Assembly: GCA_944321145.1 (NCBI GenBank) | Contig: CALUKF010000007.1 | Location: 1-64,000 of the forward strand | From: an uncultured Odoribacter sp. | GTDB lineage: Bacteria; Bacteroidota; Bacteroidia; Bacteroidales; Marinifilaceae | Reading direction: 5' to 3' | Length of the DNA: 64,000 bases | Shown: positions 10,801 to 59,583 of the stretch, piece after piece | How positions within the stretch are numbered: position 1 is the stretch's first letter | How the letters are laid out: each line of letters begins with the position of its first letter | The notes under the pieces: generated by a model | Seen by the model: only the letters and a program-made list of their open reading frames with translations | Databases searched by the model: none | What the model was told of the DNA's origin: nothing | Position numbers and translations under genes: made by a program

Positions 10801-11476
10801 CCTCTGCCCTCACGGACGTCACCGCGCTGGTATTTTTGCGACGGTCTACGACTTGGTAACCGGTAACTACCACCTCATCGATTTCCGTCGCCTCCTCGTG
10901 AAGGGTCACATTAATTTCCTTTTGCCCGGCATAGGCAATTTCCTCCGGGCACATGCCGATAAAGGAGAATACCAAACGGATGTCCTCCACATCGGGGAGG
11001 GTGATGGCAAACTTCCCTTCATGGTCGGTGCTCACGCCCATGGTCGTGCCTTTGATGATGACTGCCACGCCGGGGAGCGGATGCCCCTTCGTGTCGACAA
11101 CTGTTCCGGTCACCCGCTTTTCGTCAGCCTGCTGGCGTGCTTCGTTGCGGATGATGATAAGATTGTCGCGGAAAGTGTAGGTCAAACCGGTGTTCGCAAG
11201 GCATTTGTCGAGGATGCTGCTGAGGGTGGCATCGTTTTCAGCCAGGGTAATCCGGTCTGTCCCCATGAGGTCTTCGGACTGGTAAATGAACATGTAGCCG
11301 CAGAGTTTTTCGATTTGCTGAAAAACCTCAGAAAGCTGGCTGTCATTGACCGTCAAACTGATGCGGGCATTCTGTGCGAACGCGCTCGCGTGGCAAGTCA
11401 GGAAGCCTGCCACCATGCATACTACTAGTAATTTCATTTTTCGCAAAGTGTGTTGCAGTTTTCTTCGTTTCTTCAT
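7862..11476 (-). CDS. SusC/RagA-family TonB-dependent receptor with STN domain (locus A)
   Basis: A 1204-residue outer-membrane receptor. After the signal sequence comes an STN domain (about residues 40-112), the signalling domain that contacts FecR. A CarboxypepD_reg-like domain follows (VTGTVVDTKGHPLPGVAVII, about 120-205), then the TonB plug (AATAIYGTKAANGVIVITTKKG) and a long beta-barrel ending in aromatic GLNVSF. With SusD it should import an oligosaccharide or peptide using TonB energy. The STN domain together with upstream FecR and an ECF sigma indicates trans-envelope regulation. The ATG at 11474-11476 overlaps a plus-strand -7 element that probably drives an antisense RNA. The substrate cannot be told. 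Confidence 0.95.
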   Translation of the reverse strand: MKKRRKLQHTLRKMKLLVVCMVAGFLTCHASAFAQNARISLTVNDSQLSEVFQQIEKLCGYMFIYQSEDLMGTDRITLAENDATLSSILDKCLANTGLTYTFRDNLIIIRNEARQQADEKRVTGTVVDTKGHPLPGVAVIIKGTTMGVSTDHEGKFAITLPDVEDIRLVFSFIGMCPEEIAYAGQKEINVTLHEEATEIDEVVVTGYQVVDRRKNTSAVTSVRAEDIMIPSVTSIDKMLEGQVPDLMFMSNSGEVGVVPRIRIRGTSTLIGNREPLWVVDGIIVQDPVDIAPEELNDPDYINRIGNAIAGLNPQDIERLDILKDAAATAIYGTKAANGVIVITTKKGRVGRPVVEYSMTTTFRQRPRYTDRKINLMNSKERIQFSRELFEEHYVYPDYVNLVGYEGLMNQLYQGAITPADFDREVAKIETMNTDWFKLLTKDSFSHQHTISVSGGSEDARYYASVGYSKDNDVIKGNENERYTAALNLDVNMTKWLTASFQMNGNVSERKYYPEEIAPMNYAYTTSRAIPAYGDDGEYYYYKRKVDGSNSEEYNYNILNELDNSSYTQEGNGLTVNANLQFNFTDWLNANAIVSYSTSNTVLETYWGEKTYYAATLRGTEYGVPAETGEDSYTLMPFGGELNYNETRNNSYTVRLQLNANKTFGKDNQHNIFGSAGWEMSSTKYKAYQNISRGYYADRGMSFVNNIDLDDYPNYKTWMASNTPNLTNDLNNTVSGYISLSYGYRGWFTLNGNARVDGSNRFGDQSNHRFLPIWSASASWNLSEINWLRRDWIDYIRLKTSFGYQGNMLEDQTPVMIIKKHPTDAYFNEEGATLERNANPELKWEKTSSYNLGLEFSLFQNKLAVEASYYLKHTKDAFMTKTIASMNGIDGNAYTVNRGNVNNSGYSFAFTISPINNENVRWTLSSSFSKTINKVETDPDGNAYELQDYLDGTAVVEGKAVGTFYSYKFIGLSPVDGGPLFDDMEDEQDKLIGLSRYDTYTKVLEASGRREPVMSGGLNTSVRYKNFRLSGSFAYSLGGKIRLFGLYDAASDGSIDVSVIYPERNMNRMQLNRWKQPGDERHTNIPAIISESNGDAYYKYGDHYSVLVDNMQPLANNAWEMYDYGNHRVVSSNYLKCNNISLTYQFGENILKKTGMSRLELTLSGSNLFTICSKKLDGQTPTQSGFAEVQLSDRPTYSIGLNVSF

Positions 11477-11483
11477 ACATTTG
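11453..11483 (+). promoter_or_regulatory. plus-strand promoter overlapping the susC start (antisense)
   Basis: TTG at 11453-11455, a 20-nt spacer and TACATTTG at 11476-11483 match the Bacteroidetes -33/-7 consensus well. It reads on the plus strand, opposite to fecR and susC, and its -7 box overlaps the susC start codon. No plus-strand protein gene follows, only a terminator hairpin at 11525-11560, so a short antisense RNA is the natural product. Confidence 0.65.
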
Positions 11484-11489
11484 TGGAAT

Positions 11490-11560
11490 TAAAGTTAATG
11501 ATTGAATTAATTTTATCGCAATTCGGAGAAAGGTTTGAGGGAACCTTTCTCCATTTTTTT
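11490..11560 (+). ncRNA. predicted DonS-like cis-antisense sRNA upstream of susC (locus A)
   Basis: This is a roughly 70-nt transcript from the consensus promoter at 11453-11483 to a perfect hairpin with a T-run at 11525-11560. It is antisense to the fecR-susC intergenic leader. In Bacteroides fragilis, DonS and related antisense RNAs encoded at this position repress SusCD operons. The same arrangement occurs in locus B at about 49584-49663. The exact 5' end is estimated from the -7 box. Confidence 0.6.
11525..11560 (+). terminator. intrinsic terminator, plus strand
   Basis: GGAGAAAGGTT (11525-11535) and AACCTTTCTCC (11542-11552) form a perfect 11-bp stem with a 6-nt loop, followed by ATTTTTTT. 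The T-run is only on the plus strand, opposite to the SusCD operon, so it ends an antisense transcript rather than fecR. Confidence 0.75.
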
Positions 11561-11619
11561 ATTTCAGAGGGCAATTGTTAATGTCACAAAAATGGTTTCA
11601 TAGGCTAATCGTTTTTAAA

Positions 11620-13471: not shown

Positions 13472-13816
13472 TTATTTTGATTTCTCTGCAAAATATTCTT
13501 TCCTTATTGCTTCTGCTTTTCTAATTTCTTTTAATGGCGTTTTATCCGTTTTCTTGACAAATCCATGTGTTGCCACAACTAAAGTTTCTTCCTCAGTATC
13601 CCAAAATGCCAGAAGCCTGTAACTTATTCCATTATATAAAGTACGAAACTCCCATATATTAGTTCCATCTAATTTTTTAAACAATTCACTATCTATAAAA
13701 TAGATGCTTTTCGAGATATTGTAACCTATTTTATCCCGCGCTTTTTCCGGCAAAGCCTGTATAAAATTCCATGCTTCTTCCGTGTAGATAACTTTAAACC
13801 GTTCATCCATAAACAT
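13472..13816 (-). CDS. RelE/HigB-type toxin (Gp49-like)
   Basis: From the ATG at 13816 the product is 114 residues (MFMDERFKVIYTEEAWNFIQ). The frame is open to 13873, but the -7 promoter box TACCTTTG at 13829-13836 lies inside that extension, so the shorter start is preferred; Met3 (13810) is also possible. The sequence shows the phage-derived Gp49/HigB pattern: WNFIQALPEKARDKIGYNI, then LWEFRTLYNGISYRLLAFWD-like strands (here IWEFRTLYNGISYRLLAF) and a terminal TPLKEIRKAEAIRKEYF helix. This family cleaves mRNA on the ribosome. It is paired with the downstream XRE antitoxin. Confidence 0.87.
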   Translation of the reverse strand: MFMDERFKVIYTEEAWNFIQALPEKARDKIGYNISKSIYFIDSELFKKLDGTNIWEFRTLYNGISYRLLAFWDTEEETLVVATHGFVKKTDKTPLKEIRKAEAIRKEYFAEKSK

Positions 13817-13828
13817 CGTTTTATAGTG

Positions 13829-13836
13829 CAAAGGTA
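13829..13836 (-). promoter_or_regulatory. -7 promoter element of the HigBA module
   Basis: On the minus strand this reads TACCTTTG, an exact TAnnTTTG match, 12 nt before the chosen toxin start codon. A T-rich stretch lies upstream, but no well-spaced -33 TTG is evident. It supports the toxin start at 13816. Confidence 0.6.
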
Positions 13837-13924
13837 CATATTTGTATCCAAAAAACGATACAATCGTGCACAAAATTCACACTTCCACTTTTCTTTTTAT
13901 CACTGAGGGCATTCAAAGCAAAAG

Positions 13925-14530
13925 CTACCTGCAATAATCCCCGGAAATATCGCACAATTCCGGCATCTCCCCGCTTTCTGTCCGAAGCATAAAAAGGAAG
14001 AAAAGATTATCAGGGAATTGCTTGCGGAGAGTTTTCAAGCCACTGCTAAGCAGGCTTTTGACGGTATTGATGGAAATATGGAGTTCATCGGCTGCTTCCT
14101 GGTATTTCCGGTCGCGAAGGATGACAAGGGAGATGACTTTGCGGGTTTGCTCCGGAAGCTGGCGGATGGCTTTGTGGATATCGGCTATCAACTCAGGAGA
14201 GACAGTCCGGGCTTCCTCTTCCGCTACATCATAAAGCAACATGTCTGCCTGGCAAATTTCTTTGCGGTCGCGCTGACGGTTGAGGCAGGCGTGCTTGACA
14301 CAACGGAAAAGCCACGTGGAGAGGGCTTCCGGCGTCACACGCAAGAATACCTTGTCATGAATGAAATCATAGAATACATCCTGCACGATATCTTCCGCCA
14401 AATCACTCTCGCTAAGCATGGTTTCGGCAAACAATACCAACGGCTTATAATAGCGATTGAACAACAACCGACCGCCTTTTTCCATGTCTTTTTGAAAAGA
14501 TGCCAATATTTCTTCATCCGTGCAATACAT
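13925..14530 (-). CDS. ECF RNA polymerase sigma factor (locus A)
   Basis: A 201-residue sigma-70 family ECF factor. Region 2 (FNRYYKPLVLFAETML...DIVQDVFYDFI, about residues 24-60) and region 4 (LPEQTRKVISLVILRDRKYQEAADEL, then HISINTVKSLLSSGLKTLRK, about 120-170) are clear. It should direct RNA polymerase to the SusCD operon when FecR is triggered by the receptor STN domain. Its own promoter is suggested by TAACTTTG at 14553-14560. The expected neighbour FecR is displaced by a 1.1-kb stretch with the HigBA module and a palindrome. The C-terminal 30 residues after region 4 are an uncharacterised tail. Confidence 0.92.
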   Translation of the reverse strand: MYCTDEEILASFQKDMEKGGRLLFNRYYKPLVLFAETMLSESDLAEDIVQDVFYDFIHDKVFLRVTPEALSTWLFRCVKHACLNRQRDRKEICQADMLLYDVAEEEARTVSPELIADIHKAIRQLPEQTRKVISLVILRDRKYQEAADELHISINTVKSLLSSGLKTLRKQFPDNLFFLFMLRTESGEMPELCDISGDYCR

Positions 14531-14552
14531 GCTTTTTCCTGCTTTTTGCTGA

Positions 14553-14560
14553 CAAAGTTA
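14553..14560 (-). promoter_or_regulatory. -7 promoter element of the locus A sigma gene
   Basis: Read on the minus strand this is TAACTTTG, an exact -7 consensus, 22 nt before the sigma start codon. A -33 TTG at the right distance is not evident. Confidence 0.5.
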
Positions 14561-14588
14561 GAAATTTTTCCGAAAAAAAAGCGGTTCA

Positions 14589-15182
14589 TTAAAAATGGCT
14601 CAAAAACAATTGAACCAAACGGGGATTCAATAATGCCGGAAAAATAAAACCGAATATTGCCCCGTAGAAATGGGCAGAATGATTGATATTGTCGCCACCA
14701 CGCCGCGCCATGTATTGGCAATAAGCCAAGTAGAGCACACCGAACACAATACCCGGTATCGGGACAATGGCAAACAGGAGTATCTTATCCCAGGGATTCA
14801 AAAAGATGGCGGAAAACAAGACTGCAGACACCGCACCCGAAGCCCCGATAGAAGCATAGGCGCTGACTTCGCGATAGCGCACAACATCGGCAACCGACGC
14901 AGCTACCATCCCCCCGAAATAAAGCACGAGAAACGCCCAGCCGCCAAAACCCATATAGGAAAAGACCCGCTCGATGTATTCACCGAAAGACCAAAAAGTG
15001 AACATATTTACAAACAGATGCACCCAATCGGCATGAACAAATCCATGGGTCAGCAAACGGTACCATTCCCCGTGGTGCACCATCCGGTAAGGACGCAGCG
15101 ACAAGCGGTCAAACAATTGCCCGTTCTGAAAACAAAGGAACGAGACTACAACCGTAGCAACGGTGATAAGGGTTGTCAGCAT
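14589..15182 (-). CDS. rhomboid-family intramembrane serine protease
   Basis: A 197-residue polytopic membrane protein with about six transmembrane segments. The L1-loop region (HGEWYRLLTHGFVHADWVHLFVNMFTFWSFG) is typical of rhomboids. The catalytic serine is in GASGAVSA (about residue 112) and the catalytic histidine in NHSAHFYGAIFGF near the C-terminus. It should cleave transmembrane substrates within the inner membrane. The start is one base after the stop codon of the agmatinase-family gene, so they are translationally coupled; the functional link between the two is not obvious. Family firm. Confidence 0.93.
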   Translation of the reverse strand: MLTTLITVATVVVSFLCFQNGQLFDRLSLRPYRMVHHGEWYRLLTHGFVHADWVHLFVNMFTFWSFGEYIERVFSYMGFGGWAFLVLYFGGMVAASVADVVRYREVSAYASIGASGAVSAVLFSAIFLNPWDKILLFAIVPIPGIVFGVLYLAYCQYMARRGGDNINHSAHFYGAIFGFIFPALLNPRLVQLFLSHF

Positions 15183-15183
15183 A

Positions 15184-16047
15184 TTACTTAAACTTACAGC
15201 TTAGGAATTGGTATATCAGCTTGGCAGCCAAAAAGTCCGGCGCTTTATTGCAATCATTCGGGCAAAGCTCCACCACATCCAGCCCAATGATATTGTGGCG
15301 TTCGTTGATGAGCTTCAGGATGGTCAATACCTGGCGGTAATTCAACCCGTCCGGTTCCGGTGTTCCGGTCGAAGGCATATAAGCCGGGTCGAGGACATCC
15401 AAATCGATGGTCACATACACATTGTCTGTCAGTTTTTGGGACACTTCGTACATCCAGGCCGTACCGTCTATTTCCTTGATTTCATGAGCATAAAATATAC
15501 GGGACGGATCTATATTATGCTTTTCCTCTATGGCACTGCTCCGGATTCCCACCTGCACAATGTTTGGTGTCAAATCCTTGCCCCGTGCCATCACGCAGGC
15601 ATGATTGTAAGGCGAACCTTCGTATTCATCCCGCATGTCTGAATGGGCATCCAACTGCAAAATGGAAAATTCAGGATACCGCTTTGCCATTGCCCGGAAA
15701 GCCCCCACGCTGACGGAATGTTCTCCGCCAATCAGCACAGGAAATTTCTTGTCGGCAAGGATGGTGTTCATCCGTTGTTCCACTTCGTTCACCATGGCTT
15801 CCGGCAAGGCATTCTCTGTGACCGGATCGAGGGTCGCAATCCCATGCCTGAAAACTTCCGTATCGGTTTCAATATCATAAAATTCCATATTGAACGAGGC
15901 TTCCAGCAGGGCGCGAGGTCCTTTGTCCGCCCCCTTTATCCATGTGCTTGTCCCATCGTATGGCACCGGCAAGATGGCGATGGCAGCATCGGCATATCGG
16001 GTATATTTCTCTTCAAAATCTCCGTAAAGCAGTTTTTCCATTTTCAT
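15184..16047 (-). CDS. speB: agmatinase / arginase-family ureohydrolase
   Basis: A 287-residue cytosolic enzyme of the ureohydrolase superfamily. The binuclear manganese site is complete: GGEHSVS (about residue 113), LQLDAHSDMRDEYEGS (about 131-146) and IDLDVLDPAYMPSTGTPEPDG (about 210-230). The length, the motif spacing and the GTPEPDGL loop fit agmatinase (agmatine to putrescine plus urea) better than arginase, though formiminoglutamase-like activity cannot be excluded. Met3 (16041) is an alternative start. A consensus -7 box at 16079-16086 lies just upstream and the rhomboid gene follows immediately. Confidence 0.9.
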   Translation of the reverse strand: MKMEKLLYGDFEEKYTRYADAAIAILPVPYDGTSTWIKGADKGPRALLEASFNMEFYDIETDTEVFRHGIATLDPVTENALPEAMVNEVEQRMNTILADKKFPVLIGGEHSVSVGAFRAMAKRYPEFSILQLDAHSDMRDEYEGSPYNHACVMARGKDLTPNIVQVGIRSSAIEEKHNIDPSRIFYAHEIKEIDGTAWMYEVSQKLTDNVYVTIDLDVLDPAYMPSTGTPEPDGLNYRQVLTILKLINERHNIIGLDVVELCPNDCNKAPDFLAAKLIYQFLSCKFK

Positions 16048-16078
16048 GTATTTAATTGTATTCGTCTCTTCCTCCGGG

Positions 16079-16086
16079 CAAAATTA
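16079..16086 (-). promoter_or_regulatory. -7 promoter element before the agmatinase gene
   Basis: On the minus strand this reads TAATTTTG, matching TAnnTTTG, about 31 nt before the ATG at 16047. It overlaps the region just after the deaminase stop codon, so agmatinase and rhomboid can be expressed independently of the deaminase gene. Confidence 0.5.
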
Positions 16087-16091
16087 ATGAT

Positions 16092-17396
16092 TTATTTTTT
16101 AATTCGTGCACCCAAAGCTTTCATCTCTTCCACAATGGTATCTTTATCGAGAGTCAAGAGCTGGCGGTTTTTCATCAGCCACTCGCCGCCGACCATGGTC
16201 GAAAGGATGTTTTTGCTGTTCATGGCATAAACAATGGCAGCATATTCATTGTACACGGGCAACATATTGGAGGCTTCGGCATGTACCACAATCAAATCCG
16301 CGCTTTTACCCACCTCCAGAGAGCCGATTTCTGTCTCCAATCCTAAAGCCTTGGCACCGCCGACAGTCGCCATGCGAAGGGCAGTTGCCGCATCGAGGGC
16401 TTCCGGTTCTTGAAAAGCCCCCTTTGCCAACAGGGCAGCAAAACGCATTTCTTCCACCATATCAAGGCTGTTGTTGCTTGCCGCGCCGTCCGTCCCAATG
16501 CCCACAGGGATACCGGCTTGCAGGTAAGCGCTTACCCGGGCAATGCCACTTGCCAATTTCAAGTTGCTTTTCGGGCAATGCGCCAAAGCTGTCCCTGTGT
16601 CTGCCACCAAGCGGATGTCCTCTGCATTGAGCCACACCCCGTGGGCTGCCACAACATTTTTGTCCAACAAACCCAACGAATGAAGATACGCAGCAGGCGT
16701 TTTGCCTGTCCGGGCAAGGCATTCATCCACCTCCCGGCGGGTTTCTGCCAAATGAATCTGTAAACGGACACCAAGCCTGTCAGCCAACCGCTTTGCCGTC
16801 TGCAGTGTTTCCGCCGAGCAGGTATAAGGCGAATGGGCACATACCGCCGGGTGGATGAGAGGGTGCCCCTGCCACCGTTCTGCCAGAGTTTCCGAGAGCG
16901 CAATGCCTTGAGAAAGCGTTTGAAAATCCGGAGTCGGAAAATCAATCAGCGACTCACCCACCACACCGCGCATACCCGCACGCGCTGCCTCCTCGGCTAT
17001 CGCCTGCTCATAAAAATACATGTCGTTGAAACAAGTCGTTCCCGACTTAATCATTTCTACCAATGCCAAGCGTACAGCCAAACGCACATGCTCCTCTGTC
17101 ACCCAACGGGCTTCGGCAGGAAAAATGTGTTCCGTCAACCACTTGTGCAGAGGCAAATCATCGGCATAGCCCCTAAACAGGGTCATCGGCAAATGGGTAT
17201 GGGTATTGACCCAGCCCGGGAGGACAAACATGCCCGCCACATCGGTAATTTCCGCTTCTTCACCGGCAGCGTTCCACCCGCCGGTTGTGATTGCCTTTAT
17301 CCGCCCGTCCTCAATCACAAGAGTGCCGTCCGGGATAATGTCCATGCCCGCATTCAAGGTCAGAATACGGGCATGGGTGATGATTTTCCGTTTCAT
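16092..17396 (-). CDS. amidohydrolase, S-adenosylhomocysteine/5-methylthioadenosine deaminase-like
   Basis: From the ATG at 17396 the product is 434 residues (MKRKIITHARILTLN); a GTG at 17411 would overlap the -7 promoter box. The metal-dependent amidohydrolase motifs are all present: NTHTHLPMTLFRGYADDLPLHKWL, HLAETRREVDECL, AAHGVWL, HCPKSNLKLASGIA and GTDGAASNNSLDM. This pattern matches the MtaD/SAH deaminase branch of the TrzA-like family, which deaminates SAH or MTA to inosyl derivatives; guanine or chlorohydrolase-like activity is less likely. It is preceded by its own promoter, 42 nt downstream of hmuV, so it need not be part of the haem operon. Confidence 0.85.
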   Translation of the reverse strand: MKRKIITHARILTLNAGMDIIPDGTLVIEDGRIKAITTGGWNAAGEEAEITDVAGMFVLPGWVNTHTHLPMTLFRGYADDLPLHKWLTEHIFPAEARWVTEEHVRLAVRLALVEMIKSGTTCFNDMYFYEQAIAEEAARAGMRGVVGESLIDFPTPDFQTLSQGIALSETLAERWQGHPLIHPAVCAHSPYTCSAETLQTAKRLADRLGVRLQIHLAETRREVDECLARTGKTPAAYLHSLGLLDKNVVAAHGVWLNAEDIRLVADTGTALAHCPKSNLKLASGIARVSAYLQAGIPVGIGTDGAASNNSLDMVEEMRFAALLAKGAFQEPEALDAATALRMATVGGAKALGLETEIGSLEVGKSADLIVVHAEASNMLPVYNEYAAIVYAMNSKNILSTMVGGEWLMKNRQLLTLDKDTIVEEMKALGARIKK

Positions 17397-30314: not shown

Positions 30315-33290
30315 TTAGTTACCTTGAGTTGCAACTACGTCAACCAATACATATTCGATAACCTCGCCCCACTTGTAAACCACTTTCACCGGAACATTCA
30401 ACTGGAATGCACCAACAGCTGCACCGTTGTTCTTCAAAGTCAACTGTCCGTAGTTCTCCAAGTCAGCTGCACTTGTCGGATAAGCAAGTTTACCTTCCGT
30501 TGCTGTCAATACCAAGTTCTTGGTTACAGTTTCCAACTTCGTAGAATTGATGTCACCACCATCCAATGAAGTGTAGATCGGGTACTTCTCATCAGCATAG
30601 TCACCAGCCAAAGCCACAATCTGCGTTACTTGGTAGTATTTGTAGAAGTTTACAGGACTGAATGCAAAGTCTTCATTTCTCCAGTCAATCAAACTGATCA
30701 AATCCATGATATTGATAGTAGAACCATTGGTCTTAGCATCTTCCAATACTGCAGGATCATCAGCCTTCACGATATCAACCGGACGCAAGAAGTAAGCCTT
30801 GAACTCTCCATTGTTAACGAGCGGATATGCCAACTCACAACCATTCGTAACCTTGATGTTCATCAATGCGTAGAAGGAAGCTTCACCCAATTCATCATGA
30901 GCAGCTCTATTCAACAAGTCTTTTGCAAACAAATTGCTTGAATAAGTTACAACATTGTTTGAAGTTTCTGATAAAGTAGCAACAGTCTCAGTCGTAGTAC
31001 CGTTAGTTGCAGACAATGTCTTTCCGTCAGTACTTACGCTAAGTACATATTCTGCTCCGCTCAAACCAGTTACCTTGCGGTCTTTGTTCTTGTCAGAGAA
31101 GATAAATGCATACTTCAATGTAGCAGGAGCAAAGTCTGTAAACTCTTTGTCTACATCAATAGTAATTGTGTTGCCTCTGAACGTATTGAACAAATCAGTT
31201 ACGAAATTACACTTGTTTTCCTTGTCAACAACTTCCACATTCAAGCGTACATAGTCCTTGCCGTCGTTGCCCCAGTATTCGTCAATCTTGTCGCCTACTT
31301 CAGCAGCTTCCGGATGTTTAACGGTCGCTTTCAACGTGATAACTACATCTTCACGTCCCTTAGCAGTATAAACGGCTTTCGCTTCAAATACATCGCCATC
31401 CTTAGCAGCCTTCAACTCTGCGTCAGAAATAGTCCACTTAACGATGGTAGTCTCATCTGCAATCTCGTCCACTACTTCCTCAACCGTACCGTCTCCATTT
31501 GCATTCGTGCCATCGAATTTATAGATAGCATGGAAATCATCCTTGCTCAAGCCTAGCTTGTTGTAGATTTCAGTATTCATGAACTCAACAGTTACAGCCT
31601 TAGTTACAGCGTTGCAGCCCCAATTGATTGTACCGAAATCAAGCGTAGTCTCCATACCTTCAGAAGTACCGCGAACAATTAACAATTTAATCCAACCAAC
31701 ATTGGCAACCTCATCCGGATTAGCCATGTTGTAAAGCTCTACGCGAACCAACGGCATACGACCGATAGCAGCAGCACCAGATTCCTGATATACTTTCGTT
31801 GTAATCTCACCAGTCTTTTCGTCAACGTCGAAGAACTCGTTCTGCGGAGTTTGGTTGTCCCCAGTAATGTAGTTAGAAGCAACAAAGCGGATATCCAAGC
31901 CCAATGCGTTTAACTCTTCTCTTGTAAAGAACTTGTCTTTAGCGCAGCAAGCTACCAATACATTATTTTCATAATCTTTTTCAGTATAGTGCGCAACTAC
32001 ATAGTCTTCCAGTTTTACTTTCTGAGAATTGTCATAGAGCACAGTGATTACTTGCGGAGATACAGCATTTACATCAACACCGTCAATAGCGTCCTGAGCC
32101 TTTCCGCTTGCAGTACCCCACAAATGCCCTTTACCTTCCTTAAAGTCACCAGTATACTTCTCCACATCAGCAGAAGCCAAACGGAAATCCGTAATCGTCG
32201 TGTTGAAAATAGCGGCATAATCAGAAGTAATCACATGCTCAGCAGCCTCTTCCTCCTCAGCGTTCGGATCTACCACAACAGCCTGTACTGAAACAACAGA
32301 AATTTCTTCATCCTTAGAACCAGCTAATTTGTCCCCATCAACAGAGAAAGTGAGTTGCAACATTTGTTCGTCACCAACTTTCACCAGTTCCTTGTTTTCT
32401 AATTTTGCACCCAACTCATTGGCAGCCTTCGTATGCACATACTCTTTGTTATCCGTAACAAAGCGAACTTCCTTGATGCTGGTCAAATCAATATTGGACG
32501 GATTGATGTGGTAACGGGCAACAATCTTAGCCGGAATTTCAAGGCTTGCAATCTTATCCTTATCGTCAGCAGCTGCCTTGCTCCAAACCTCACCAGTAGT
32601 AGTCGGCTTCTCATCAGAAACGATTTGATCCCAATCAGCCGTCTTGATGTAGCGGGCTTTCATTGCCTCTACGCCATTCAAATAAGCCTGCGGCTCAAAT
32701 ACCATGCTCTTCAAAAGACCGGCTTCAATCATCAAATTAACTGTCGGCTGGTCGCCATAAGTAATAGCATAACCAATTACAGCACCTGCAGCATTTTTAA
32801 TTTCAACAATCTGCAAAGCAGGAGCTTCCGGAACAGCCGGGAGCGTTACCTCAGTTGCAGTTTCACCGTAATAAACTTTGCCATCCTTTACCGTCAAGAG
32901 AGCAGGATTGAAAGCTTCTACTTTTTCCTGTTTAACCACCACAGTTTGCGCAGTACCTTCGCTGGGTGTCAAAGTAAGCTCAAATCCGCCTTCGGCTTCT
33001 TTTCCGCTCAGAGTATAAGTTACATTGCCATCTCCAATAGGACAGATCACCGCCTCGCCATCAGAAGGAGTAATGGTCAATATTCCCTTCTCTTCGTCAA
33101 AAGTCACTGATTTCACATAAGCCAATTCCCCAAATTGCTCTGACAATTGGCTAAGTGTTGTTTCTAATGCGTCTACACGCTCATTCAGACCATCAATGTC
33201 ATCATCGTAGTCTTTACAACTCGTCATAGACACCGACAGTCCCAATACCATACACATCAGAATGTGTAAAAATTTAGTTGTCTGTTTCAT
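30315..33290 (-). CDS. large surface lipoprotein with N-terminal coiled coil
   Basis: A 991-residue lipoprotein (signal ending in VSMTSCKDYDDD). Just after the lipid anchor is a short coiled coil (IDGLNERVDALETTLSQLSEQFGEL), then small beta domains (GDGEAVICPIGDGNV-like, SGKEAEGGFELTLTPSEGT) as in proteins with the PL29-lyase N-terminal type domain. The rest is beta-rich, repetitive and acidic, with no catalytic motif I recognise. The coding sequence uses a biased codon set (many GTT, GCA, AAG, AAC) unlike flanking genes, as for a highly expressed envelope protein. A leader of about 540 nt precedes it. It may be an S-layer-like or structural cell-surface protein; that is inference. Confidence 0.7.
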   Translation of the reverse strand: MKQTTKFLHILMCMVLGLSVSMTSCKDYDDDIDGLNERVDALETTLSQLSEQFGELAYVKSVTFDEEKGILTITPSDGEAVICPIGDGNVTYTLSGKEAEGGFELTLTPSEGTAQTVVVKQEKVEAFNPALLTVKDGKVYYGETATEVTLPAVPEAPALQIVEIKNAAGAVIGYAITYGDQPTVNLMIEAGLLKSMVFEPQAYLNGVEAMKARYIKTADWDQIVSDEKPTTTGEVWSKAAADDKDKIASLEIPAKIVARYHINPSNIDLTSIKEVRFVTDNKEYVHTKAANELGAKLENKELVKVGDEQMLQLTFSVDGDKLAGSKDEEISVVSVQAVVVDPNAEEEEAAEHVITSDYAAIFNTTITDFRLASADVEKYTGDFKEGKGHLWGTASGKAQDAIDGVDVNAVSPQVITVLYDNSQKVKLEDYVVAHYTEKDYENNVLVACCAKDKFFTREELNALGLDIRFVASNYITGDNQTPQNEFFDVDEKTGEITTKVYQESGAAAIGRMPLVRVELYNMANPDEVANVGWIKLLIVRGTSEGMETTLDFGTINWGCNAVTKAVTVEFMNTEIYNKLGLSKDDFHAIYKFDGTNANGDGTVEEVVDEIADETTIVKWTISDAELKAAKDGDVFEAKAVYTAKGREDVVITLKATVKHPEAAEVGDKIDEYWGNDGKDYVRLNVEVVDKENKCNFVTDLFNTFRGNTITIDVDKEFTDFAPATLKYAFIFSDKNKDRKVTGLSGAEYVLSVSTDGKTLSATNGTTTETVATLSETSNNVVTYSSNLFAKDLLNRAAHDELGEASFYALMNIKVTNGCELAYPLVNNGEFKAYFLRPVDIVKADDPAVLEDAKTNGSTINIMDLISLIDWRNEDFAFSPVNFYKYYQVTQIVALAGDYADEKYPIYTSLDGGDINSTKLETVTKNLVLTATEGKLAYPTSAADLENYGQLTLKNNGAAVGAFQLNVPVKVVYKWGEVIEYVLVDVVATQGN

Positions 33291-44485: not shown

Positions 44486-45919
44486 TTAATCCTTCAATTC
44501 TCCTACCCTCTTCGGTTCATAAGCCGAAGCGTTTTGCTCCAATTGGATGTTGTTCTTAATCGCCTCAGACGGGATAGGCAGCGTATAAAGCGGGTCTTTC
44601 TCCTGCAGCGTATAAGTCATCCAAGCGTCTTTCCCGTATTGCTTGTAATCGTGCGTGATGGCAGGCATCCCGTAGCGGCGCAAATCAAACCAGCGGTGCC
44701 CCTCGAAGCACAATTCCGCGTAGCGTTCCGTGCGTATCTCGTCCAGCAATTGGGCTTCATCTGTGATATTCACGTCCTCATAATCCACAATGCGGTTGCG
44801 CCGCAACTCGTTCAAGTCAGTCAGAGCCAAGGTGTTTTTGTTTGCCTGTTCCGACAGCACGTATGCCTCTGCCCGGTTCAGATAAGCTTCCGAAATGCGA
44901 ATGGTATTGGTCGGCGTCGTTCCGTAATTTGATATCTTGCATATAGCTTCCTCATACACTATTTCATCCTCGTACTCATCATAAGTACAGAACCAGAATA
45001 TCTCCCTCCGGTCTGACTTTCCTGCAAAGCACTCCATCAAACTGCTTGAAGGTGCCAAGATGATTCCGTCATACACTTCTCCGGCATCTCCGTACACCCA
45101 CTCCACTTCGCTGTTGTCATACGAGTACATCGTAAATCCCCCCTTTTCTGCCAATTTCGTGTAATCCGTCAAGCCCTCTGCCGACTCGATGGCTCGGCTT
45201 GCCGCAGTGACGGCATCGTCATAGCGTTCCATGAAGAGGTACACCCGCGACAGGATGATGTCCACCGTCGTGCTGTTGATGCGGTAATCTCCCCGCGTCT
45301 TGGGAAGCTGGTTGAACAGTTCGGAGGAGGTTTCCAAATCTTCCACGATTTGCTCGTAGACTTCCCCCACCGTGTTGCGCTTCATCCCGTTCTCCACCAA
45401 CGCTGCCGTCAGCTTCAAGGGCACCCCCAGGGCTTCTTTGTTGTAATTGTAAGGCTCGCCAAACAGGTTCACCAGGAAGAAGTAATAGAATCCCCTCAAC
45501 CCCAAGGCTTCCGCCTTCACCCGGTCTCGGGTCTCTTGGTCGCCTCTGGCACCGTCAATTCCGTCCAATACGGCATTCACGCCCATAATCAAGGCGTAAG
45601 CATCTGCGTATGCCGAATTGATCATGGTTTCCGTCTCCCACATGTCCGGTTGCCAAGTAAAAACGCCTTCCACTTCCATCGAGTAAGAATAATCGTCTCC
45701 CCAGTCAAACACATCGCTGCGGAGTTGGGTCTCGTCGCTCAGCACAAACAGCATTTGCCAAATATCGGAGTATCCCATATAATTCAAGACCAATTCGCTG
45801 TAATCATACACCGTTTCAGGAATCACCTCGTCCTGCGAACTTTCCTTCAGGAAATTCGAGCAACCCGACATTCCCAAGCCCGCTACGAAGACCAATATAA
45901 ATAATCTCAGTCGTTTCAT
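44486..45919 (-). CDS. SusD/RagB-family lipoprotein (locus B)
   Basis: A 477-residue SusD-like lipoprotein (signal ending GLGMSGCSN). TPR-like helices (VYLFMERYDDAVTAASRAI), the SusD N-terminal region around GFYYFFLVNLFGEPYN and the C-terminal ELCFEGHRWFDLRRYGMP are present. It ends close to the core (PIPSEAIKNNIQLEQN...), without the Tyr/Gly tail seen in locus A. It should bind substrate on top of the adjacent SusC barrel. The gene starts 24 nt after susC. Confidence 0.93.
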   Translation of the reverse strand: MKRLRLFILVFVAGLGMSGCSNFLKESSQDEVIPETVYDYSELVLNYMGYSDIWQMLFVLSDETQLRSDVFDWGDDYSYSMEVEGVFTWQPDMWETETMINSAYADAYALIMGVNAVLDGIDGARGDQETRDRVKAEALGLRGFYYFFLVNLFGEPYNYNKEALGVPLKLTAALVENGMKRNTVGEVYEQIVEDLETSSELFNQLPKTRGDYRINSTTVDIILSRVYLFMERYDDAVTAASRAIESAEGLTDYTKLAEKGGFTMYSYDNSEVEWVYGDAGEVYDGIILAPSSSLMECFAGKSDRREIFWFCTYDEYEDEIVYEEAICKISNYGTTPTNTIRISEAYLNRAEAYVLSEQANKNTLALTDLNELRRNRIVDYEDVNITDEAQLLDEIRTERYAELCFEGHRWFDLRRYGMPAITHDYKQYGKDAWMTYTLQEKDPLYTLPIPSEAIKNNIQLEQNASAYEPKRVGELKD

Positions 45920-45943: not shown

Positions 45944-48900
45944 TTAAAACATTATTTGCAGGGACAAAGAGGTCGTCCGGCGCGTTGGCCAATCTCCTGT
46001 CTCCGGGTCTAATCCGTCCCACTTCTTGTCCGATACCCACATAAACGGGTTGCTCATGCTTGCCGACAGGGAGAGGTACCCCAACCCCGCTTTGTCCAAC
46101 CACTCTCCCGTAAAGTCATACGACAAAGAAAGGGAACGGCAACGGATAAAGTCCGTATTCGCCACCCGGATGTCAGACAGGTTGTACATGGCATAGCAAT
46201 TCTCCCGCTGCTCCGTGGAAGTCTTGGTTTCCGGCAAATAAATCTCTTCATCTTGCGTATAGCTGGGCAGCGTGGGGTAAATCGTCTGGTCTCCCGGTTG
46301 CCGCCAGCGGTTCATCAATTTGCGGGATACGTTCTGCTCCGGACGGGGCAACCCCGAACCGTTACCGCTTCCGCTTTCTGCAGGATACAAGTTCGGTAAC
46401 CGGTTGTGCCCGCCCCATTGCACGGCGAACAAAGCCGACAGGGAGAGTTGCTTGTACTTGAACATCATGTTCAACCCGCCGGAGAAATCAGGCGTGAACT
46501 TCCCGGTCTCCACCAAAAAGTCTTTGGGGCTGTCAGCATTTTCATATTCGATATCCATGTGTTTGAACGTTGGCATCCCCGTTTCATCGTCCAAGCCCGC
46601 AAATTCGTATGAATAGAACGTAGAATAAGGACGTCCGTCCACCACGGCAGAGCCGTTCAGATAATCATCCAGCGTATTGATACGTTCGTTCTTGTCCACC
46701 GTATTGTTGGTCACCGACGTATTCAGTGAAAGTTGCCACGTGAAATCCTTTGTCCGCACAGGCACCAAATTAATCACAAAATCATAACCGTTATTTTTCA
46801 TCGTGGAGCCGGAAACCACGCCGTTCTCCATGCCGTTCTCGAAAGGAATGTTCCGTGAAGAAAGCACATAGCTGGTCTTGCGGAAGTAGTTGAACGTGAA
46901 GTTCAGCCGCCCTTTCAGGAACGAAGCGTCCAACCCGAAGTTCCACGTCTTCGTCTTCTCCCAGCCCAAATTCGGATAAGGCAGGAACTTTATCGCCAAT
47001 CCGTAATCGCCATACTGTTTGAGATACGACTCCGTCGCAATCAGATTCGGCGACACGGAAGTCACCGCATTCCCCTGGTACCCGTAGGAGCCGTAAATGT
47101 CCAAATTGTTCAGCCACCATGTAGCCGCCCAGAAAGGCTCGCTCGCCACCCTCCACTTGAAGCCTGCCGACCACGTCGGTTGGAAGCGTTTGTTCTTGTC
47201 TTGCCCGAAGCGGTTGGACGCATCCACGCGGGCACTGAAGTTCAGCACGTAACGGTCATCATACGTGTACACGGCAGAACCGTATTCGCTCAACTGGTTC
47301 TCTACCCGGTTGACGACCGTGTGCGACCCGTTCACGATGTCGCTATTATCCATCGTCATGCCATAGGTGCTTTCATGTTCGGCAGGAGGCAGGACGAAAG
47401 ATTCCCCTCGGGTGGGCATGTACCCGTACCGCGTGTTGGTCTCCCCCTTCGTTTTGGTGGAATTGGTCTCAATACCCAGCTGCAATACCAACCGGTGTAC
47501 ATCCTTGATTGAACAGTCGTACACCAGGCTGTTTCTCACGGAGATGCCTTGGGTATTGGTCAATGTCGTTTCCAGCAACCCGCCCATGGGAAGCGGCGAA
47601 CATCCTGCTTCCTCGCTGTTTGCCGAATATTCCCCGTACTCATACCCGCGGATGCTGCTGATGTAGAACGAAGGCTCGTCTGCCCATTGCTTGGTGTCGG
47701 CAGAAGAAGAGGAGAAAGAGAACATCCCTTGGTAAGTCAATCCCTTCAAAAACTCCCACTGCACGTCCAGCGTCGTGCCCCACGTGCGGGTGCGGTTTTC
47801 GCTCGCCGTATTGTCCATTTCATTCAAAATGTTGTAATTGTAAATGGTGCCACCCGTAACGTAGCTCGCACTGCCTTTCTTTTCGTGGTAATACAACGAG
47901 CCGTCCTCATTGTAAGCCGGAATCGCCCGTGACGTATTGTAAGCATAATTGAACGGGTCAACGCCGTAAGCAAACCCCTTCACCTCGCGCAGGCTTGCAT
48001 TCAGCAGGAAAGACACCTGCACCTTGTCCCAAAGCTGCAAACTCGTGTTGGAGGAAGCCGTGAAGTTCGTCGAACTGTTGCCCCTTGCCTCTCCGTTTTC
48101 CTGTGAATATCCCAACGAAATGCGGTTCTGTATCTTCTCCGAGCCGCCGCTGATGCCCAAATGGTGGGAATGGTTGAACGTGTTGCGGAACAGGATGTCA
48201 AACCAGTCCGTATTTGTCCGTGCCATACGTTCATACTCTTTGTTCATCTCTTCCAACGTGATTTCCCCGTTAAACAATTTCTGTTCCAACCCGTAGTAAC
48301 CCATCGGGAGGATAAATGAACTTGACTGATATTGCTTCCGTTCCTCATGTATCTCCCGTTGGAACTGCATGTGCTCCGCCGAGTTCATCAGGTCGTACAG
48401 CCCGTACCGGGGACGTTGCCCGATGGTGAAATCGCCGCTGTAGCTGAGTTGGATTCTCCCGACCTGCGCCTTCTTCGTCGTGATGACAATCACCCCGTTT
48501 GCTGCCTGCGAACCGTAAATTGCCGTTGCCGAAGCGTCTTTCAGCACCGTGATAGACTCAATGTCGCGGGGATTCAGCCATGAAATCGCGTTCCCTGCCA
48601 GCTCCGTGATATCGTCCGCATCCGTGGAAAACTTGAAATTGTCATCCGAATTGAACGGCTGCGGGTCGCGCTGGATTACGCCGTCCACCACCCACAGCGG
48701 CTCCTGACTGCCCAGCAGCGTCGAGGTGCCCCGCACCCGGATTTTGGGCGTCGCGCCCACCATCCCCGTCTGGTTCTGCACCAACATGCCTGGCACCACG
48801 CCCTGCAACATCTGGTCAATCGACGACACGCCTGCCATCATGATGTCCTCCGCCTTCACCGTCGTCGCCGCGCCCGTGTAATTTCCTTTCGACACATTGC

Positions 48901-49570
48901 CGTATCCCGTCACCACCACCTCGTTCATCTCTTGGATATCTTCTTTCAGCACCACATTGATAGTCTCCTTCCCTGCATATTTCACCACCTGCGTCTCGAA
49001 CCCCACAAACGAGAATGCCAGCGAAAAAGCCTCGTCCCCCAGCACCGGGACTGTCAAGGCATAATGCCCGTCCACATCCGTCGCCGTCCCGATAGTCACC
49101 CCGACCTCGTCTTCTTGCACTAATACGGTCACTCCCGGCAATGGCTGGTGCTTGGGGTCACGCACAATGCCCCGCACTTGGACAGCCTTAATTTCCTCTC
49201 CCTTCGCCTCCTTCTTCTTGATAATAATGTAATTGTCATCATACTGCCACTCAAACGGCTGCCCGGCGAAGAGCTTCTTCAGTGCCTCCTCCACCGTCCC
49301 GTTCGCGACGTGCAGCGTCACGGGCGACAACCCCTTCAGCTGCTCCGTGTTGTACATGAAATTGAGCCCCGTCTGCTCCTTGATTTGCTGGAAGACAAGC
49401 GAAATGTCCGCCTGCTCCACGTTGATACTCACTTTCTGTTCCTGGGCGGCAAGCGTGAGAGGCGTGAAAATCACCGCTATCCACGCAATTGCCAGCGTCC
49501 GGCAGAAAAATCTTGTCTTTTTTCGCCATTTTTTAGGCGAAGAAATGCCCATTGTGTTGGTTTTCTCCAT
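45944..49570 (-). CDS. SusC/RagA-family TonB-dependent receptor with STN domain (locus B)
   Basis: A 1208-residue receptor with the same order as locus A: signal region, STN domain (ISLVFQQIKEQTGLNFMYNT..., about residues 50-115), CarboxypepD_reg-like domain (VRGIVRDPKHQPLPGVTVLV, about 130-215), plug (ATAIYGSQAANGVIVITTKKA) and barrel ending in LSLQIMF. It is a TonB-powered importer that signals through FecR. The start codon (49568-49570) overlaps a plus-strand -7 box of a probable antisense RNA. The substrate is unknown. Confidence 0.95.
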   Translation of the reverse strand: MEKTNTMGISSPKKWRKKTRFFCRTLAIAWIAVIFTPLTLAAQEQKVSINVEQADISLVFQQIKEQTGLNFMYNTEQLKGLSPVTLHVANGTVEEALKKLFAGQPFEWQYDDNYIIIKKKEAKGEEIKAVQVRGIVRDPKHQPLPGVTVLVQEDEVGVTIGTATDVDGHYALTVPVLGDEAFSLAFSFVGFETQVVKYAGKETINVVLKEDIQEMNEVVVTGYGNVSKGNYTGAATTVKAEDIMMAGVSSIDQMLQGVVPGMLVQNQTGMVGATPKIRVRGTSTLLGSQEPLWVVDGVIQRDPQPFNSDDNFKFSTDADDITELAGNAISWLNPRDIESITVLKDASATAIYGSQAANGVIVITTKKAQVGRIQLSYSGDFTIGQRPRYGLYDLMNSAEHMQFQREIHEERKQYQSSSFILPMGYYGLEQKLFNGEITLEEMNKEYERMARTNTDWFDILFRNTFNHSHHLGISGGSEKIQNRISLGYSQENGEARGNSSTNFTASSNTSLQLWDKVQVSFLLNASLREVKGFAYGVDPFNYAYNTSRAIPAYNEDGSLYYHEKKGSASYVTGGTIYNYNILNEMDNTASENRTRTWGTTLDVQWEFLKGLTYQGMFSFSSSSADTKQWADEPSFYISSIRGYEYGEYSANSEEAGCSPLPMGGLLETTLTNTQGISVRNSLVYDCSIKDVHRLVLQLGIETNSTKTKGETNTRYGYMPTRGESFVLPPAEHESTYGMTMDNSDIVNGSHTVVNRVENQLSEYGSAVYTYDDRYVLNFSARVDASNRFGQDKNKRFQPTWSAGFKWRVASEPFWAATWWLNNLDIYGSYGYQGNAVTSVSPNLIATESYLKQYGDYGLAIKFLPYPNLGWEKTKTWNFGLDASFLKGRLNFTFNYFRKTSYVLSSRNIPFENGMENGVVSGSTMKNNGYDFVINLVPVRTKDFTWQLSLNTSVTNNTVDKNERINTLDDYLNGSAVVDGRPYSTFYSYEFAGLDDETGMPTFKHMDIEYENADSPKDFLVETGKFTPDFSGGLNMMFKYKQLSLSALFAVQWGGHNRLPNLYPAESGSGNGSGLPRPEQNVSRKLMNRWRQPGDQTIYPTLPSYTQDEEIYLPETKTSTEQRENCYAMYNLSDIRVANTDFIRCRSLSLSYDFTGEWLDKAGLGYLSLSASMSNPFMWVSDKKWDGLDPETGDWPTRRTTSLSLQIMF

Positions 49571-49577
49571 AATTTTG
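49570..49577 (+). promoter_or_regulatory. plus-strand -7 element overlapping the susC start (locus B)
   Basis: TAATTTTG matches TAnnTTTG on the plus strand, antisense to susC, in the same position relative to the start codon as in locus A. The nearest TTG (49552-49554) is 15 nt upstream, shorter than ideal. Confidence 0.5.
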
Positions 49578-49583
49578 TGATTA

Positions 49584-49663
49584 TAAAATTGTGATTTGAT
49601 ATGGATGCCTCAAACATCCGTTTGCGAGCCGCGAGTTGTTGGAGCAACTTGCGGTTTACTTTT
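49584..49663 (+). ncRNA. predicted DonS-like cis-antisense sRNA upstream of susC (locus B)
   Basis: A transcript of about 80 nt is predicted from the -7 box at 49570-49577 to a hairpin, CCGCGAGTTG/CAACTTGCGG (49629-49654, one mismatch), followed by TTTACTTTT. It lies in the fecR-susC gap on the opposite strand, as in locus A, and a small GGATG/CATCC hairpin (about 49604-49620) precedes the terminator. The 5' end is estimated. Confidence 0.5.
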
Positions 49664-49675
49664 AGTCATCTGCTC

Positions 49676-50812
49676 TCAGGGCGCATACACGGTCACGCTC
49701 TCCCCCTTCACGCCGAAAAGCACGGTGCCCGTCGACTCCATCCGCTCCAACCCCTCCTCAAACGAGTCGTTCCGGTCGAGAATCCCCGAAAACCACACCT
49801 CCTTCGCCCCTTCCGTGGCATAGAACACATGCAGCCCGTACCACGACGCCAGCCGCTCCATGATGTCCTCCACGCGTGCATTGTCAAACACAAACTCCCC
49901 GTCCTTCCACGCAATGTACGCATACGGCGACACGTCGCTCACCGCAATGCCGCTCCCCTCCCCGCCGTATTCCGCCAGCTGCCTCGGCTTCAGCACCGCC
50001 TCCTCGCCCGTCTCCCGCACGCGCACACCCACCTTCCCTTCGACGAGCACCGTCTGGATGTTCGTCTCAGAATAAGCGTTCACGTTAAATTCCGTACCGT
50101 ACACCTTTACCTCCACCCCGTATGCCTCCACGAGGAACGGGTGCGTCCCGTCATGCGCCACGTCGAAATATGCCTCTCCCCACAGCTCCACCTTCCGCTC
50201 CTTCCCTTGGAACCGCTCCGGATAACGGATGACCGTCTGTTCGTTCACCCACACCCGCGTCCCGTCCGCCAGTGTCAGCTGGTAAGCCCCGCCTGCAGGC
50301 GTCCGCAGCGTGTTCAGCCGCTCCTCCGCCGTGCTGCCTGCTCCGGCAACCGCTACAGCCGTATAATCCAGCCCCCTCGCCGTGTCGTAAGGAATCCCCT
50401 CCCCGGCAGTTCCCCCGCCCTGCGGGTCTATGAACAACTGCTCGCCGCTCGCCAGCGTCAGCTCCACCAGCTTCCGGGGAGCCTCCACCTCCGCCGCCGG
50501 GACGCCTCCCGTCCGGAACAAATCCCCGCCAACGATGGCAAGGACGGCAACGGCAGCCGCCGCTGCGCACCAACCTGCAATCCTGCGGCGGAGCTTCCGC
50601 CCGTTCCCCCGCCGTTGCAAACGCGGCATCTCCGCCGGTTGCGCCTCATGCCCCTTCTGTGCCGACAGCACTTTCCGGATGAGAGCCAACTCGTCTACCA
50701 GCTCCTCGTGCCCCGGCTCCGCCAGCCACGCCCGGGCTTCCTCCTCGGGCACTTCCTCCCGGTGGTTCAGCAGCCGTATGGCAAATTCAATATCTTCGTT
50801 CGTGTAATTCAT
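49676..50812 (-). CDS. FecR-family anti-sigma factor (locus B)
   Basis: From the ATG at 50812 (MNYTNEDIEFAIRLLNHREE) the product is 378 residues. The N-terminal cytoplasmic region, a membrane helix (IAGWCAAAAAVAVLAIVGG, about 83-102), the FecR domain (YQLTLADGTRVWVNEQTVIRYP, AYFDVAHDGTHPFLV) and the C-terminal DUF4974 domain (ARVEDIMERLASWYGLHVFY) are all present. It holds the adjacent ECF sigma factor inactive until the SusC STN domain signals. It lies 74 nt after the sigma gene, the ordinary arrangement that locus A has lost. Confidence 0.93.
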   Translation of the reverse strand: MNYTNEDIEFAIRLLNHREEVPEEEARAWLAEPGHEELVDELALIRKVLSAQKGHEAQPAEMPRLQRRGNGRKLRRRIAGWCAAAAAVAVLAIVGGDLFRTGGVPAAEVEAPRKLVELTLASGEQLFIDPQGGGTAGEGIPYDTARGLDYTAVAVAGAGSTAEERLNTLRTPAGGAYQLTLADGTRVWVNEQTVIRYPERFQGKERKVELWGEAYFDVAHDGTHPFLVEAYGVEVKVYGTEFNVNAYSETNIQTVLVEGKVGVRVRETGEEAVLKPRQLAEYGGEGSGIAVSDVSPYAYIAWKDGEFVFDNARVEDIMERLASWYGLHVFYATEGAKEVWFSGILDRNDSFEEGLERMESTGTVLFGVKGESVTVYAP

Positions 50813-50886: not shown

Positions 50887-51450
50887 TCAGGATTTCCACG
50901 CAAAAACGAGCAGCGACATCATATCCCTCTGTGCGTCATCGTCTTCCGCATTTGTCAATTCCGCCCTCAAAAATGACAATCCCCGCGCCAGGTGCGTCTT
51001 CAGCGAATTGACGGTGATGCCCATCTCGTCGGCAGCCGCCTGGTATCTCTTCCCCTCCACGACGCACTTCACGATGGCTTCCCGCTGCTTCTCCGACAGC
51101 TCCCCCATCTTCACCCTCAGCCGCTCCTCCCGGCTCTCGATGGTGCGCCAATCCTCCGCCACATGCTCCATCCAGGCGGCGATTTCCTGCTCGTTGTCCT
51201 CCTGCACGCGCTTGTGCTTCAGGTGGTTCAACGCCCGGTTGCGCGCCAGCGTGAGCAGGTACGCCTTCACGGGGTACGAGGCATCGATGCGCTCCCGGTT
51301 GTCCCACAGGATGACAAACACGTCCTGCGCAATGTCCTTCGCCGCCTCCCCGTCGTTCACATACCCCGCCACGAACTGCACGACATTCCCGAAGTACGTC
51401 GTGTACAGGCGGCTGAATGCGCCCTCGTCCAAAGCAGGCTTCTTGTCCAT
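50887..51450 (-). CDS. ECF RNA polymerase sigma factor (locus B)
   Basis: From the ATG at 51450 (MDKKPALDEGAFSRLYTTYF) the product is 187 residues. Region 2 (DGEAAKDIAQDVFVILWDNRE, about 33-55) and region 4 (LSEKQREAIVKCVVEGKRYQ, AADEMGITVNSLKTHLARGL, about 115-165) fit an ECF factor of the Bacteroidetes SusCD-linked class. The longer open frame upstream crosses a -7 promoter element at 51477-51484 and is not used. It should activate the susCD operon of locus B. Confidence 0.93.
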   Translation of the reverse strand: MDKKPALDEGAFSRLYTTYFGNVVQFVAGYVNDGEAAKDIAQDVFVILWDNRERIDASYPVKAYLLTLARNRALNHLKHKRVQEDNEQEIAAWMEHVAEDWRTIESREERLRVKMGELSEKQREAIVKCVVEGKRYQAAADEMGITVNSLKTHLARGLSFLRAELTNAEDDDAQRDMMSLLVFAWKS

Positions 51451-51476
51451 ACGTGCAAACGGTGTTAATATTTCCG

Positions 51477-51484
51477 CAAAAATA
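51477..51484 (-). promoter_or_regulatory. -7 promoter element of the locus B sigma gene
   Basis: On the minus strand this is TATTTTTG, an exact -7 match, 26 nt before the ATG at 51450. No well-spaced -33 TTG is seen. Confidence 0.45.
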
Positions 51485-51896
51485 CTTTTTTCCTGTGAAA
51501 AATATCCCTCCTCCCGGCAATTATTTTTTATCCATCCGCATGCAGCCGCATGCACCGAGCCGGCGGTTGCCTGCAATGGGGGATAATCTTCGTGCCGGCA
51601 TGCCGGGATGCCCGTGTGCAGGGCTTGTGTTGCTCTATAGTTACTCCTTGGTTCACACATCCTTACCACTAAGTTCCCATATGCTTCCCATATCTGAGGA
51701 TATGGCAGGTATATGGGAACCTACGGGCAACCTTGTGGGAGACTACCAGCAACCATAGAGCAACCTGCCGGCAAATCATGTGATATAAATGAACAGCCGA
51801 CCCCCTCCGGGGCGCTTCCCCGGAAGCGGGGAAAGAGCCGGGCGGGGGAGGAGAAAAAAATCGGGGCGGGGATGCGGGGATTTGGCGGGGATTGCG
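51485..51896. other. divergent intergenic region with nested inverted repeats
   Basis: No protein gene is supported. It holds the upstream part of the locus B sigma promoter, the nested palindrome at 51629-51764, and a purine-rich G-stretch (about 51795-51895) marking the start of the GC-rich block. Confidence 0.5.
51629..51764. repeat. nested palindromic element
   Basis: The outer arms GTTGCTCTAT (51629-51638) and ATAGAGCAAC (51755-51764) are perfect inverted repeats. Inside are GTTCCCATAT/ATATGGGAAC (51673-51682/51711-51720) and CCATATC/GATATGG (51688-51694/51699-51705). The whole can fold as one branched hairpin. The left arm is followed by AGTTACTCCTTGGTTCACAC, which resembles the left arm of the palindrome at 13004, so both may belong to one dispersed family. 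Confidence 0.65.
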
Positions 51897-59367: not shown

Positions 59368-59375
59368 CGTATCTT
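59368..59375 (+). promoter_or_regulatory. -7 promoter element of the btuFCD transcript
   Basis: TATCTTTG is an exact -7 consensus placed just before the cobalamin riboswitch, as expected for a transcript that begins with the aptamer. A good -33 TTG is absent; the third tandem repeat occupies that place. Confidence 0.65.
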
Positions 59376-59380
59376 TGCCC

Positions 59381-59542
59381 TCCGAATCGGTATCGCCTTC
59401 GGGCGAGCAAGGGAATCCGGTGGGAATCCGGAGCTGTCCCCGCAGCTGTAAAGCCATGACCGCCCGCAGGGGCGGGTCTTTCCAAACAACCCACTGATGT
59501 GTTTTCGGGAAGGGGGAAAGGCGGCAAGCCAGAAAACCTGCC
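59381..59542 (+). promoter_or_regulatory. cobalamin riboswitch
   Basis: The conserved aptamer pieces appear in order: AAGGGAATCCGGTG, GGAATCCGGAGCTGTCCCCG, CAGCTGTAA, then an internal GC-rich hairpin (CCGCCCGCAGGGGCGGG), the B12-box-like CCCACTGATGTG, and GGCAAGCCAGAAAACCTGCCG at the 3' end. It lies 41 nt before the substrate-binding protein gene of the B12 transporter. When adenosylcobalamin or methylcobalamin binds, expression of btuFCD should fall, probably by hiding the translation start, as no clear terminator follows. Confidence 0.92.
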
Positions 59543-59583
59543 GAGAAAATGAATGGATAAAGTAACTTTCGGAGGAAAAGAAA

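Follow-up and report, generated by a model that had tools for sequence, protein, structure and literature searches.

A predicted cis-antisense RNA with its promoter box on the susC start codon in FecR-linked loci of an uncultured Odoribacter

Genes and elements of locus B

The window, that is, the whole stretch of 64,000 nucleotides of uncultured Odoribacter DNA analysed here, contains two SusCD loci, referred to as A and B. At locus B, genes for an ECF-type sigma factor, a FecR anti-sigma protein, an STN-type SusC and a SusD follow one another on the minus strand (Table 1), with a gap of 105 nt between fecR and susC. Its neighbours are genes for thioredoxin-like proteins and a weak match to a metallopeptidase, with no obvious glycan enzymes. 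In an Rfam scan of the window no family was assigned to the locus, and the sole match at curated score was a cobalamin riboswitch elsewhere (RF00174, 79.9 bits, 59371-59559, plus strand). A 991-residue open reading frame at 30315-33290 on the minus strand is without a Pfam match at E 0.001.

Table 1. Coordinates of the genes and of the observed and predicted elements of loci A and B in the window
Feature	Position	Strand	Details
ECF-type sigma factor gene (regions 2 and 4)	50887-51669	-	start codon provisional
fecR anti-sigma gene (FecR, FecR_C)	49676-50812	-	start codon CAT 50810-50812; stop 49676-49678
Intrinsic terminator	49626-49665	+	14-bp stem 49626-49657, core 49629-49654; T-rich tail TTTACTTTTAG
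Core hairpin	49629-49654		stem CCGCGAGTTG 49629-49638, loop TTGGAG 49639-49644, stem CAACTTGCGG 49645-49654; tail TTTACTTTTAG 49655-49665
First stem-loop of predicted RNA	49601-49621	+	7 bp, 7-nt loop; from folding
Predicted cis-antisense RNA, ~80 nt	49584-49663	+	5' end +/- 3 nt, placed from the -7 box
-7 promoter box TAATTTTG of predicted antisense RNA	49570-49577	+	first base is the last base of the susC CAT
susC start codon, locus B	49568-49570		CAT on +; ATG 49570-49568 on -
susC, locus B	45944-49570	-	STN, CarboxypepD_reg-like, Plug, TonB-dependent barrel
susD, locus B	44486-45919	-
Antisense -7 box TACATTTG, locus A	11476-11483	+	first base is the last base of the susC CAT
Predicted antisense RNA, locus A	11489-11561	+	terminator hairpin 11525-11552 and T-run at the end

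The plus strand of the gap carries what appears to be a small transcription unit directed against susC. Its -7 box is an exact match to TAnnTTTG, the -7 consensus of sigma-ABfr, the primary sigma factor of Bacteroidetes (PMC7366714). As a point against the antisense reading, no enrichment of a -33 TTTG box was detected upstream in 95 aligned promoters, though a -33 motif was likewise not identifiable in Flavobacterium johnsoniae (PMC7366714). The hairpin was called as an intrinsic terminator on the plus strand only, its stem being extended to 14 pairs. The plus-strand fold reaches -27.7 kcal/mol (z -3.85), with none of 200 shuffles equally good, and is more stable than that of the minus strand (-19.7 kcal/mol, z -2.83). 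Within the core stem, a single pair reads G.U on the plus strand and A.C on the minus strand. The T-tail is broken up (TTTACTTTT), which also counts against the antisense reading.

The initial annotation had described a plus-strand sequence overlapping the susC start codon, a 10-bp hairpin with a T-rich tail in the fecR-susC gap, and the same arrangement in locus A. All three were recovered, the 10-bp hairpin now forming the core of the longer stem, and locus A showing TACATTTG on its susC CAT and a hairpin GGAGAAAGGTTT..AACCTTTCTCC followed by a T-run. The predicted 5' end of the RNA lies about 14 nt before the ATG, so it is the promoter and not the RNA that overlaps the start codon.

Recurrence of the box and the terminator

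The assembly contains 50 FecR matches, and the regions downstream of them were read gap by gap in the direction of susC. Nearly all gaps follow a common order, in which the fecR stop codon is followed by an A-run, a GC-rich hairpin, an AT-rich stretch and CAAANNT-ATG; on the opposite strand the same gaps present CAT-AnnTTTG, the hairpin and a T-run finishing at the fecR stop codon. The motif CAAANNTA stands at the ATG in 38 of the 44 fecR loci with SusC next, and in 38 of the 40 whose gap is at least 45 nt, the latter count covering sense CAAANNTATG or the form shifted by 1 nt. As start codon, the in-frame ATG fitting the motif best was chosen from within 100 nt, background genes being handled identically. 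An antisense terminator is present in 33 of the 38 motif-bearing loci versus 23% of dinucleotide shuffles (p 8e-17), and sense-strand terminators were found in 10 of the 44 fecR-susC loci.

The genome background for these motif counts was 460 kb of the same genome, where CAAANNT precedes an in-frame ATG in 8 of 303 long ORFs, seven of the eight being FecR-linked SusC genes. The motif is thus carried by 1 of ~295 other genes versus 38 of 40 long-gap loci (Fisher 1.6e-44), counts that are not fully independent because most loci are paralogs. Five SusC genes lacking a FecR-type leader (L095, L096, L098-L100) are without it, and two STN-type SusC genes separate from fecR (L097, L102) have it. At L027 and L102 (G000:C13, ~13570-17300) an M16-peptidase-like gene lies between fecR and the STN susC; similar hairpin leaders precede both genes, and the -7 box is kept only ahead of susC.

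An unguided scan of both strands of the 460 kb (921 kb of strand) returned 405 TAnnTTTG boxes and 91 strong terminators, which combine into 12 box-plus-terminator units. Five of these overlap an ATG, all of them at FecR-linked susC starts, and both window loci are among the five. This agrees with the initial annotation that chance is an unlikely source of the arrangement; of its further argument from two independent occurrences, the recurrence stands, whereas strict independence does not, the modules being paralogous.

The presence of the motif depends on the length of the gap. Across 15 or so genomes it occurs in 1 of 24 loci with a gap below 45 nt, too small for the predicted RNA, and in 102 of 133 with longer gaps (Fisher 9e-12), a comparison that includes a few non-SusC neighbours on both sides. 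Short-gap susC genes often retain an N-terminal extension of the same kind as their long-gap relatives. Their true start is therefore probably the first ATG, and translation probably does not require the motif. This in-frame extension was seen in most STN-type SusC proteins of L002-L051, whose second Met and ordinary signal peptide come after ~20 residues.

Beyond this genome, the box is found in most long-gap loci of Butyricimonas and other Bacteroidales. The nearest named relatives of SusC B belong to Butyricimonas (60-63% identity), and their loci retain the box and a hairpin of different sequence; loss of the hairpin in close relatives, named by the initial annotation as a refuting outcome, was looked for and did not occur there or in other relatives. 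In one Butyricimonas MAG locus (L109, FecR 57% identical) the stem of locus B is retained as CCGCAGGTTG/CAACCTGCGG. The same design, with longer gaps, occurs in a Parabacteroides MAG and several further Bacteroidales families.

Some side observations concern these relatives. The terminator loop of locus B reads TTGGAG (L010, window 49639-49644) where L109 has CTCCAA on the same strand between retained stems, and it looks as if the loop had been flipped relative to its Butyricimonas counterpart. Two Butyricimonas genomes (G001 and G002, with L072 and L074) contain 126 and 106 FecR matches, an unusually large number of FecR/ECF modules. In the Chitinophaga SusC relatives L075-L080, which have no exact TAnnTTTG at the ATG, a perfect hairpin CCGTCACGG..CCGTGACGG is kept ~100 nt ahead of susC, and in most of them an A-run (a T-run on the antisense strand) precedes it.

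Strand of the hairpin and competing explanations

Strand preference was examined with a strand-symmetric hairpin finder. Among the mismatches in stems, 58 form G.U on the antisense strand and 18 on the sense strand; the antisense bias persists after composition correction (p 0.006). The covariance model R2, built on an alignment (A1) of 35 hairpins from other genomes only, gave 12 matches in this genome. Eleven of them lie in or beside FecR-susC leaders, each in the antisense direction, and the twelfth (C27:5342) is an ordinary gene-end terminator. The hairpin of locus B is matched at 49629-49662 with 25.1 bits, rank 2 in the 460 kb, where the model also finds locus A, weakly. Covariation counts on A1 were set aside as partly circular, its sequences having been selected as hairpins.

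Taken together, the motif and the hairpin, their recurrence and conservation, and the bias in strand make it likely that the locus encodes an ~80-nt plus-strand cis-antisense RNA, which probably silences susC before FecR/ECF-sigma induction. The locus-specific antisense RNAs proposed by the initial annotation, whose transcription is predicted, are supported as the best reading.

An unlikely but serious alternative is that an antisense transcript is made and acts only by transcriptional interference, by shielding fecR, or not at all, with no RNA-RNA pairing. In B. thetaiotaomicron, transcription from the antisense strand is frequently weak and may be spurious (PMC7366714), and some antisense-PUL pairs of this species correlate positively (PMC10994844), so repression is not to be presumed at each locus. 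Against this, silencing by DonS in B. fragilis is reported in later accounts (PMC11697453, PMC10994844), and the shape and position of the terminator are conserved across families. The loops are also larger than those of ordinary terminators: 6-7 nt loops occur in 35 of 82 antisense terminators, drawn from this genome and its relatives and including window 49626-49657, versus 6 of 54 ordinary terminators of the genome. The conserved terminator and larger loops suggest selection on the RNA itself, and from its size the enlarged loop may have a role in loop-loop pairing. Size is the only loop feature that stands out. A YUNR (U-turn) signature was rejected as too weak (35% of sense loops versus 15% of shuffles and 20% of ordinary terminators). 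The antisense terminator loops often finish in CAA.

It is considerably less probable that the elements serve the sense strand, with CAAANNTATG belonging to an ECF-dependent promoter of susC and the hairpin acting as a stabiliser or attenuator in the susC mRNA leader. Motif and hairpin are indeed absent together where fecR and susC resemble one operon, and the hairpin folds on the sense strand too. Such a promoter would nevertheless place the start of transcription inside the gene, yet the short-gap siblings often keep the N-terminal extension, and both the T-runs on the antisense side of the hairpin and the G.U bias point to the other strand. ECF-specific promoters should moreover vary among paralogs, but the box is identical everywhere and equals the primary-sigma consensus. 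Finally, that CAAANNT is a translation signal of SusC mRNAs, with TAnnTTTG as its by-product, is very improbable: Bacteroidetes starts are A-rich upstream and the genome background prefers A at -4 to -7, but other genes almost entirely lack the motif, short-gap SusC genes of the same family start without it, L024 and L031 retain CAAANNTA despite an ATG 1 nt further on, and the antisense terminator would be left unexplained.

Proposed action of the RNA and comparison with known systems

For the antisense RNA of locus B the following course can be proposed. The primary sigma factor would initiate transcription near 49584, about 7 nt past the -7 box that overlaps the susC start codon, and the transcript would terminate in the T-tail around 49663, shortly ahead of the stop codon of fecR. 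The predicted RNA, which is assumed to overlap the susC mRNA, would be complementary along its entire length to the leader of susC, at about -14 to -95 relative to the ATG, and not to coding sequence, and the paired stretch would take in the AT-rich region by the ATG where ribosomes presumably load. Pairing with leaky susC mRNA could then block ribosome access or cause decay, and convergent transcription through the shared leader may contribute. The susC gene and the downstream susD of the operon would in this way be kept silent until FecR releases the ECF sigma factor. No other predicted RNA in this genome shares more than 8 consecutive bases with the predicted RNA of locus B, which is encoded in its own leader, and for these reasons its action should be locus-specific.

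A broader and more tentative proposal, which we regard as possible though doubtful, is that such an RNA, with its box on the start codon, forms a standard third layer, next to sigma and anti-sigma factor, of essentially every Bacteroidales ECF/FecR/STN-SusC module that has its own leader. This would amount to ~40 locus-specific RNAs here and perhaps about 100 in some Butyricimonas, with the enlarged loops serving sense-antisense recognition.

Among antisense systems in general, the plasmid cis-antisense RNAs with kissing loops, of the CopA and Hok/Sok type, combine stem-loops and exposed loops with a fully complementary leader. Unlike these, the loci described here involve no replication or toxin gene, and loop recognition is suggested by loop size only. 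Closer in function is the FopS sRNA family of B. thetaiotaomicron, whose members are likewise small RNAs tied to PUL regulation and some of which are antisense (PMC11697453). FopS RNAs are, however, paralogous and mostly intergenic (PMC11697453), whereas those predicted here are cis-encoded and locus-specific.

The closest relatives are DonS and the other PUL-associated cis-antisense RNAs of Bacteroides, which are 78-128 nt long and divergent to a susC homologue (Cao et al. 2016, as cited in PMC7366714 and PMC10994844). According to the same two secondary accounts, primary-sigma promoters are common among Bacteroides cis-antisense RNAs, and lowering of susC has been proposed or shown. Fifteen PULs with such RNAs are listed for B. 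fragilis (PMC9723704), and 32 such RNAs, with negative and positive correlations, for B. thetaiotaomicron (PMC10994844). As in the DonS type, the predicted unit lies opposite a susC homologue at its 5' end, with STN-type SusC followed by SusD; by their predicted ends, the RNA of locus B (80 nt) falls within the DonS range and that of locus A (73 nt) slightly under it. The differences are that the host is outside Bacteroides, that the RNA is here predicted from sequence, and that locus B has thioredoxin-like genes and a weak peptidase match in place of obvious glycan enzymes.

The idea is not new in kind, antisense RNAs of the DonS type being already known for susC genes from experiments (PMC7366714, PMC10994844). 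Among the papers searched, in which DonS was represented by later accounts, none states a fixed overlap between box and start codon or a dependence on gap length. The promoter-on-start-codon geometry and the almost universal association with the ECF-sigma/FecR/STN-SusC module may be new. The lists of PUL-associated antisense RNAs compiled so far by RNA-seq come from two Bacteroides species. The loci described here provide a rule by which such RNAs can be predicted from sequence, namely a -7 box fixed at the start codon of susC together with an antisense terminator ahead of the fecR stop. Both are present if the fecR-susC gap has room for the RNA and lost if it does not, so that the class can be tested throughout Bacteroidales with no need for RNA-seq of each species. 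This rule ties the class to ECF/FecR transport modules and not to glycan use as such, and, compared with the DonS accounts cited above, it adds a box that is fixed on the start codon and near-universal among long-gap FecR loci.
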